From Dyella jiangningensis (GTDB taxonomy: Bacteria; Pseudomonadota; Gammaproteobacteria; Xanthomonadales; Rhodanobacteraceae), in assembly GCA_000632805.1 (NCBI GenBank), contig CP007444.1, forward strand, positions 248,001-312,000: a stretch of 64,000 nucleotides of DNA, given 5' to 3'. The notes beneath the pieces were generated by a model. It did no database searches, was not told the DNA's origin, and saw only the letters and a program-made list of their open reading frames with translations. Positions 12,039 through 12,605 of the stretch are shown one piece after another. A program made the position numbers and the translations under genes. Position 1 is the stretch's first letter. The number at the start of each line of letters is the position of its first letter.

Positions 12039-12605
12039 ATGGCAACATCGAAATTCATCAAACCTTATATCGAGCATGGAGAGAAAGCCGGCGCAGTACG
12101 CAAGATCACGGTGTCGATTCCCTTGCACGTGTTGAGGCCCCTATCTGACGAACGCACCCGGCGTCAGGTAAACAATCTTCGGCACGCCACCAATAGCGAT
12201 CTGCTTGTGGAGGCGTTCCTACATGCTTTTACTGGGCAACCACTGCCAACTGATGAGGAGCTGAGACGAACTATGGCCACTGCCAAGAAAGCCGCAAAGA
12301 AACCCGCCGCCAAGAAGGCGAGCAAGAAGACCGCTGTGAAGAAGGCCGCCGCGAAGAAGCCGGTTGCCCGCAAGCCGGCCGCCAAGAAGGCTGCCAAGAA
12401 GGTCGCCAAGAAGGCTGTTGCTAAGAAGCGCCCGGCTGCCGCCAAGAAGGCTGCCGTGAAGAAGGTTGCTACCAAGAAGGTGGCGAAGAAGGCCACTGCC
12501 AAGAAGCGCACCGTGAAGAAGGCCGCTGCCGCCAAGGTGGTCAAGGCCACCAAGGCTGCCAAGGCCCCCAAGGCTGCTAAGGCTGCTAAGGCTGCCAAGA
12601 AGTAA
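12039..12605 (+). CDS. metJ: MetJ methionine repressor core fused to a histone H1-like Lys/Ala-rich tail
   Basis: A 188-residue chimera. Residues 1-77 match the MetJ repressor very closely: [20 protein letters not shown], then the run from [17 protein letters not shown] to [13 protein letters not shown] (37-70). MetJ is a ribbon-helix-helix repressor using S-adenosylmethionine as corepressor; its DNA-contacting strand (KITVSIP, 22-28) and its SAM-pocket region are present. The usual C-terminal helix (about 30 residues in E. coli) is missing. Instead residues 79-188 are a tail of about 42 Lys and 42 Ala in 110 residues ([13 protein letters not shown] repeats), resembling histone H1/AlgP-like bacterial proteins. 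The ATG at 12039 follows GGAG at 12025-12028. M79 (ATG 12273) could be an internal start. The target is probably the metX operator at 45.5 kb. Confidence 0.85.

Follow-up and report, generated by a model that had tools for sequence, protein, structure and literature searches.

A conserved fusion of metJ to a histone H1-like tail, and a probable second gene within it

The protein considered here resembles MetJ of E. coli (1cma; NCBIfam NF003622) in its DNA- and SAM-binding core, which aligns over residues 4–83, and in the tandem met boxes that precede methionine genes. Its C-terminal part has other parallels. Mycobacterial HupB and Streptomyces HupS and TopA join a DNA-binding or DNA-acting domain to a PAKK/KAAK or lysine-repeat tail (PMC5676037; PMC7398561; PMC11229371), and HupB is reported to be unable to associate with the nucleoid when this tail is missing (PMC5676037). 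AlgP and PhaF of Pseudomonas and Hc2 of Chlamydia carry a Lys/Ala-rich histone H1-like domain (PMC9239181; PMC2848022), and domains of the AlgP type can act on polyphosphate granules (PMC9239181). The production of a shorter protein in the same frame from an internal start is described for repR of pIGRK and trfA of RK2 (PMC6854812).

The methionine genes themselves also have a described counterpart. In Xanthomonas campestris the same three genes that form the met operon discussed below lie behind a SAM-I riboswitch (PMC7270179). Control of the E. coli type is said to appear conserved in Xanthomonas (PMC7270179), which contrasts with the absence of metJ reported for X. campestris 8004 (PMC6230763). 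A regulon survey lists MetJ in six gamma-proteobacterial groups and SamR for the Xanthomonadales studied (PMC4239095). In the open-access literature searched, which leaves subscription papers mostly outside, neither a tailed MetJ nor its inner start was found described, and the same holds for a histone H1-like tail on any sequence-specific repressor that responds to a metabolite.

The fusion, its distribution and its operators

The locus was noticed in a sequence-only reading of the window, the whole 64,000-nucleotide stretch of DNA analysed here, which claimed that a single open frame runs from MetJ into 110 residues of Lys and Ala. The 188-residue frame is indeed uninterrupted, and its parts and conserved neighbour are as follows.

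12039..12605, plus strand: metJ::H1 gene, 188 amino acids, MetJ core and Lys/Ala tail in one uninterrupted frame
12039..12272, plus strand: MetJ core, residues 1–78, with the ribbon-helix-helix and the SAM pocket region
12273..12605, plus strand: H1-like Lys/Ala protein of 110 amino acids, fusion tail and proposed free protein, with Met79 as its first residue
11022..11417, plus strand: gcvH, conserved neighbour upstream of metJ::H1

Pfam MetJ matched residues 5–82 (E 1.6e-36; 124.6 bits, cut-off 25), and phmmer found the E. coli MetJ structures (1cma, 7.9e-32, aligned residues 4–83). The NCBIfam MetJ equivalog scored 129.4 bits (cut-off 110), and by this model the whole 188-residue protein is named MetJ. 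The profile match stops at position 82 of 97, and the remainder is replaced by the tail, which in the window contains 42 Lys and 42 Ala. For residues 80–187 there is a weak match to Pfam HC2, the histone H1-like family of Hc2 (22.2 bits, below the cut-off of 40). Because the histone H1-like profiles score below their cut-offs, ‘H1-like’ is used here as a label of composition, membership being unproven. A structure prediction of the protein was too poor to be used (mean pLDDT 49, pTM 0.15); it placed helices at residues 38–47, 53–65 and 72–85. When the tail was searched against its own genome, only the metJ::H1 locus and its contig-end copy were found; the biased sequence makes such a search weak, and in G203, where a tail is known to be present, it returned nothing.

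MetJ was found in 193 of 197 genomes and in all 26 genera of family f1 (Dyella, Rhodanobacter and kin), which, going by the named loci, we take to be the Rhodanobacteraceae. We read 122 f1 loci, eight of which run off the end of a contig; from the remaining 114 came 104 distinct complete ORFs, and every one of them carries the tail. The tails of these 104 genes vary from 37 to 312 residues, with a K+R fraction of 0.30–0.51. Across 103 tails the composition is 35% K and 34% A, and in 99 of them acidic residues are absent past the junction. Outside f1, none of 59 MetJ loci (f9, f12, Enterobacteriaceae, Vibrionaceae and others) is tailed, and the longest C-terminal extension past the core is 34 residues. 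Of the 200 genomes sampled from the order, 53 have MetJ, and these comprise 34 from f1 and 19 from f9 and f12; in the class sample it occurred in five of 369. The gene order in the window is gcvT–gcvH, then metJ::H1, and gcvH lies on the same strand, at most 2.5 kb upstream, in 99 of the 120 family loci, counted with duplicates, whose sequence reaches far enough. The fusion is real and conserved, and is no assembly error.

The MetJ proteins of f12 (L159–L164) are encoded by tail-less open frames of 80–88 amino acids that end right after the core; judging by these, MetJ may suffice without its C-terminal segment. Two further Lys/Ala-tailed proteins, named by eye, were seen in the order at L267 (about 2–995) and L269 (about 639–1272), one Ku-like and one phasin-like, in which the Lys/Ala repeats are followed by a further C-terminal stretch. 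The window genome (G000) has a second copy of metJ::H1 in the same contig, offset by 5,052,004 (at ∼5.31 Mb). This is best explained as an overlap of the contig ends, because the met boxes and the riboswitch recur at the same offset. The ends seem to overlap by ∼345 kb, with metJ, the riboswitch and several met-box sites doubled, and such an overlap would explain the contamination value of 8.39 for this genome.

The core retains the residues K23, T25, E59, H63, F65, L70 and R42, which we take to be the MetJ positions that contact DNA and SAM: the first six are kept in all of 100 distinct f1 cores, and R42 in 83. A MetJ operator had been presumed to lie near 45.5 kb in the window, and a tandem met box is found at that place, ahead of the methionine genes.

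45503..45518, plus strand: tandem met box, putative operator through which MetJ would control the met operon, AGACGTTTAGACGTCT, one mismatch to two met boxes
45520..45548, plus strand: promoter, TTGACA, 17 nt, TTAGAT, directly after the operator, read by eye
45556..45671, plus strand: SAM-I riboswitch (RF00162, 88 bits, E 1.5e-19), directly behind the operator
45703..49098, plus strand: met operon, encoding MetX (homoserine O-succinyltransferase), cystathionine gamma-synthase and a homoserine dehydrogenase-like protein

For the third of these proteins no model scored above its cut-off. Sites were scored against the met-box consensus. A met-box pair with three mismatches or fewer occurs once in the window, against 0.10 expected, and 45503–45518 is the sole one-mismatch pair in the genome, its contig-end copy aside. 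Across the genome, 32 sites were counted at up to three mismatches, compared with 13 when the pattern was reversed, and the weaker sites are therefore mostly uninformative.

The SAM riboswitch is present in 77 of 78 f1 genomes. In all 30 f1 loci examined, out of these 77 riboswitch-bearing genomes, a met-box pair with at most three mismatches precedes it, and in 24 of the 30 TTGACA follows right after the met box. The comparison set consisted of 21 riboswitch loci, all from MetJ-less families. Scoring was possible for 18 (the anchor of L236 being 84 nt off), none of which has a met-box pair at fewer than six mismatches. The riboswitch also occurs in some genomes of f9, a family that lies outside this set and whose MetJ is tail-less. 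Given the contrast between 30 of 30 f1 loci and 0 of 18 from MetJ-less families, the core of the fusion is very likely still a working MetJ, predicted to bind met operators. SAM control of the met operon would then be double, with a predicted MetJ operator and a riboswitch in series.

A met-box pair (at most four mismatches) also lies ∼150–190 nt upstream of metJ in 61 of 98 f1 members, against two of 98 shuffles. In the window there is a weak pair at 11868–11883, with four mismatches and ∼170 nt upstream of metJ. It is followed by a terminator-like hairpin, flagged on the minus strand at 11898–11917, and then, at 11982, by a TTGACA. The arrangement upstream of metJ might serve autoregulation or reflect a small RNA.

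The leader at the junction and the free H1-like genes

The end of the MetJ core overlaps a short stretch in which the nucleotides, and not the amino acids alone, are conserved.

12225..12266, plus strand: frozen block of 14 codons, proposed internal-start leader overlapping the end of the MetJ core, synonymous sites nearly invariant
12255..12260, plus strand: Shine–Dalgarno-like GAGGAG, 12 nt before the internal ATG
12273..12275, plus strand: internal in-frame start ATG (Met79), Met in 103 of 104 distinct complete f1 genes

The ratio of observed to expected synonymous diversity is 0.206 in the block and 0.815 in codons 0–53, and none of 5000 column permutations, which ignore shared ancestry, reached 0.206 (100 distinct genes; L148, which lacks the Met, was left out). 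When L148 and the cut loci are included, 109 distinct f1 genes give 0.24 against 0.82. The 59 tail-less MetJ genes used as a control show no freezing (0.93 vs. 0.85). With one genome per genus (24 of the 26 f1 genera, two being without listed coordinates), the most frequent synonym has a mean share of 0.91 in the block against 0.62. The invariant or nearly invariant codons include ACT (99/100), GGG (100/100), two CCA (92/92 and 99/100), two GAG (100/100 each) and AGA (94/94), and positions with GAT (69/100) and CTG (69/100) are still variable inside the block. Codon preference fails to explain the freezing, because many codons of the block are seldom used in nine window genes, where their shares of the respective amino acid are 0.02 for ACT, 0.05 for GGG, 0.05 for CCA, 0.00 for AGA and 0.02 for CGA.

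Several features of the junction resemble those of a site where translation begins. All 98 distinct junctions that have an ATG and enough flank contain GAGGAG before it, 87 at a distance of 12 nt and 11 at a distance of 9 nt; a Shine–Dalgarno spacing of 12 nt is longer than usual. An SD-like 4-mer is found at metJ's own start in only 29 of 97 genes. Mean information over positions −20 to −1 is 0.38 bits at metJ's own start (97 genes) and 1.47 bits at the inner start, the latter being in part coding constraint. From about −40 to +30 around the inner ATG the RNA has less structure than anywhere else in the profiled stretch, and in 39 of 39 genes it is less structured there than in synonymous shuffles (mean z 1.78; every second of the 98 genes, minus 10 with tails too short). 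None of seven other offsets shows such an opening, and offset −60 is more structured than its shuffles. Among Lys codons 4–9 past the ATG, AAA accounts for 22–100%, against 2–10% beyond codon 20; at Lys codon 3 it is just 5%, so the enrichment is uneven.

The frozen block extends ∼27 nt upstream of the SD. As this is longer than a ribosome needs, something besides the ribosome may also read it. The exceptional locus L148 (in G203) has kept the fusion, with GTG standing where other f1 genes have the inner ATG; its frozen codons are gone, and no gcvH was found upstream of it. The fusion can therefore exist without the leader; L148 fits the idea of an internal start, yet it is a single case. In each of 100 genes a single step would turn any of three junction codons into a stop, yet none of the 104 complete genes is stopped before the tail.

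Two candidate RNA elements were considered and rejected: a hammerhead-like CUGAUGA, read by eye in the block, of which the GAA part is not kept, and a hairpin before the block, whose 7-bp stem is compatible with 84–95 of 95 sequences with no convincing covariation. The 10-mer CCACTGCCAA occurs twice and in different frames, at 12240–12249 in the leader and at 12277–12286 just past the inner ATG.

We then compared the junction with other members of the order. A search of 151 order genomes with 81 nt of junction DNA matched 12 genomes outside f1, most strongly G014 and G024 of f3 (E about 6e-9); G005 of f6 gave a long match (9e-5). These three have free H1-like genes (MATTKKAAAKKAPAKK... among their sequences) whose leader is recognisably that of f1. 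Among the nine weaker matches (E 7e-5 to 0.009), those read in G023 and G050 are to Lys/Ala repeats only, as are second matches in G080 and G053 (with the former two, L266–L269). The matches in G057 and G038 sit at their own tail-less metJ, and those in G017, G054, G083, G086 and G108 were left out of the reading. A pattern search for the leader in 299 order genomes found it in 67 of 76 f1 genomes and, among the 223 others, only in G014, G024 and G005; the reversed pattern had no match in any of the 299.

The free counterparts of the tail thus identified lie behind the same leader in four genomes, G014, G024 and G002 (f3) and G005 (f6), at the loci L263 (in G024), L264, L302 and L265, and none of these genomes gave a MetJ hit. 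In all three f3 genomes, the third being G002, the 43-nt leader TTTCACTGGGCAAC...GAGGAGCTAAGAC is identical. An in-frame stop, TAA in G002 and TAG in G005, stands six codons before the ATG of the free gene, so that in these two no start region other than the inner one is usable. Upstream of the free gene the frame stays open over 54 codons in G014 and 86 in G024, and a longer product is conceivable there. The free gene of G024 (L263) follows gcvH and a gcvT-like ORF, the latter assigned by eye, and the other two f3 genomes align with L263 over the free-gene region; in G005 the free gene follows gcvPA. Against NF038053 the free proteins of L263 and L265 score 43.4 and 39.0 bits, below the cut-off of 80. 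The weak Hc2 and Burkholderia H1-like matches seen here belong with the AlgP, PhaF and Hc2 type of domain, with scores under the curated cut-offs. The leader of f1 spells old, widely conserved MetJ residues, which suggests that the fusion and the inner start came first and that MetJ was lost later in f3 and f6. We consider this the simplest history.

Explanations for the locus

We believe that metJ::H1 is probably one gene for two proteins: a MetJ-H1 repressor gated by SAM and, separately, an H1-like protein that is free of it. Translation from 12039 would give the MetJ repressor with its C-terminal end replaced by the H1-like tail. In its SAM-bound form MetJ-H1 would occupy the tandem met boxes at the met operon promoter, and since this operator lies upstream of the SAM-I riboswitch, SAM would shut the operon at two levels. 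The tail probably adds nonspecific affinity and slows dissociation of the repressor, by analogy with the reported role of the HupB tail (PMC5676037). Translation from the internal ATG at 12273, from a ribosome-binding region that overlaps the last MetJ codons, would give the free 110-residue H1-like protein, which is expected to coat DNA, or another polyanion, with no sequence specificity. Polyphosphate granules can also serve as a target for H1-like domains, as AlgP shows (PMC9239181). We infer the use of the internal start by ribosomes in f1, the SAM-dependent binding of DNA by the core and the roles of the tail and of the free protein from these comparisons.

The sequence-only reading had taken the gene for a chimeric repressor, a metabolite-gated linker histone whose tail could raise affinity, spread silencing from the operator or bridge DNA. 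Part of this holds: the fusion is conserved and its met operators are kept, and the maintenance of the fusion frame in 104 of 104 complete genes, where stops are avoided though one step away, suggests that the tail matters in cis. Regulation of the met genes can, moreover, be explained without any free protein. The reading overlooked the signs of an internal start, the free genes of MetJ-less relatives and the riboswitch behind the operator, and we think it unlikely as a full account, with no separate product, because a view that admits the fusion only leaves the frozen leader and the free genes unexplained. It is also rather improbable that only the fusion is made and the frozen nucleotides are another element, such as an internal promoter, an operator, or a site for a small RNA or protein, the ATG being no more than a retained methionine. 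The block does reach upstream past a ribosome-binding site, but no sigma-70-like promoter was found in it by consensus and no credible Rfam family match in the gene. The SD-like site in 98 of 98 junctions, the open RNA at the ATG and the early AAA codons fit a translation start instead, and MetJ-less relatives keep the leader together with a free H1-like gene, two of the four with the in-frame stop.

The rarity of many block codons in the nine window genes might suggest that frozen codon usage slows translation and lets the MetJ core fold before a sticky tail emerges. We regard this as very unlikely, since the exact codons are kept, the two GAG codons are invariant although common (0.56), and the leader persists where MetJ is gone. 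Little speaks for a tail that is a useless, neutral low-complexity extension: its repetitive sequence and its range of 37 to 312 residues would suit that view, which becomes highly improbable when all 104 distinct complete genes are tailed, at a K+R fraction of 0.30–0.51, and 99 of 103 tails are free of acidic residues past the junction. That an assembly error or a frameshift has fused metJ with a histone-like gene, as the apparent overlap of contig ends in an imperfect assembly might lead one to suspect, we consider next to impossible. Of the 43 f1 loci L033–L075, six are truncated at the end of a contig and the remaining 37 are all tailed, and in the closest named genome, Dyella sp. EPa41, all of 92 query residues are identical; the presence of the fusion in independent genomes has already refuted an artefact as its cause.

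One gene for two proteins accounts for both sides of this evidence. A view that admits the free protein only predicts stops before the tail in f1, and there are none in complete genes. Both products appear to be kept, as judged from the absence of such stops, which are one step away, and from the frozen leader and the free genes. We therefore regard a gene within a gene as very likely, going by sequence comparison. The wider proposal, which we favour on balance, is that the last codons of the repressor double as the leader of a histone-like gene, so that one mRNA would yield MetJ-H1 and a free H1-like nucleoid protein and would tie the coating of the chromosome to methionine/SAM status; sister lineages would have lost the repressor and kept the inner gene with its leader as a fossil.

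If this is true, metJ::H1, kept across a bacterial family, is a clear example in nature of a single frame that yields two proteins binding DNA in different modes. It offers a ready test of a histone-like tail on a specific repressor, since the tail would be present in the same cell both attached to the repressor and free of it, and one operon that would be under double SAM control, by operator and riboswitch. It also indicates that family models can hide inner genes, the whole protein being called MetJ by NCBIfam.

Comparison with known systems

The locus departs from each of the systems it resembles. The 104-residue chain of the E. coli MetJ crystal runs on for ∼20 residues where the protein described here has a Lys/Ala tail instead. 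HupB, HupS and TopA are general nucleoid proteins or an enzyme (PMC5676037; PMC7398561; PMC11229371), whereas the tail in f1 is joined to a predicted sequence-specific, SAM-gated repressor and seems to own a start region. AlgP, PhaF and Hc2 have no MetJ domain, and the tail scores under the curated cut-offs; AlgP has a helical N-terminal domain of its own (PMC9239181). In X. campestris 8004 metJ is reported to be absent (PMC6230763), whereas f1 has a predicted MetJ operator before the riboswitch. The short forms of repR and trfA are truncated Rep proteins that still bind DNA and modulate the long form (PMC6854812), whereas the short form proposed here would lack the repressor domain, and its counterparts exist as separate genes. 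We regard the fusion as a new combination of known principles, namely tailed DNA-binding proteins and in-frame internal starts.
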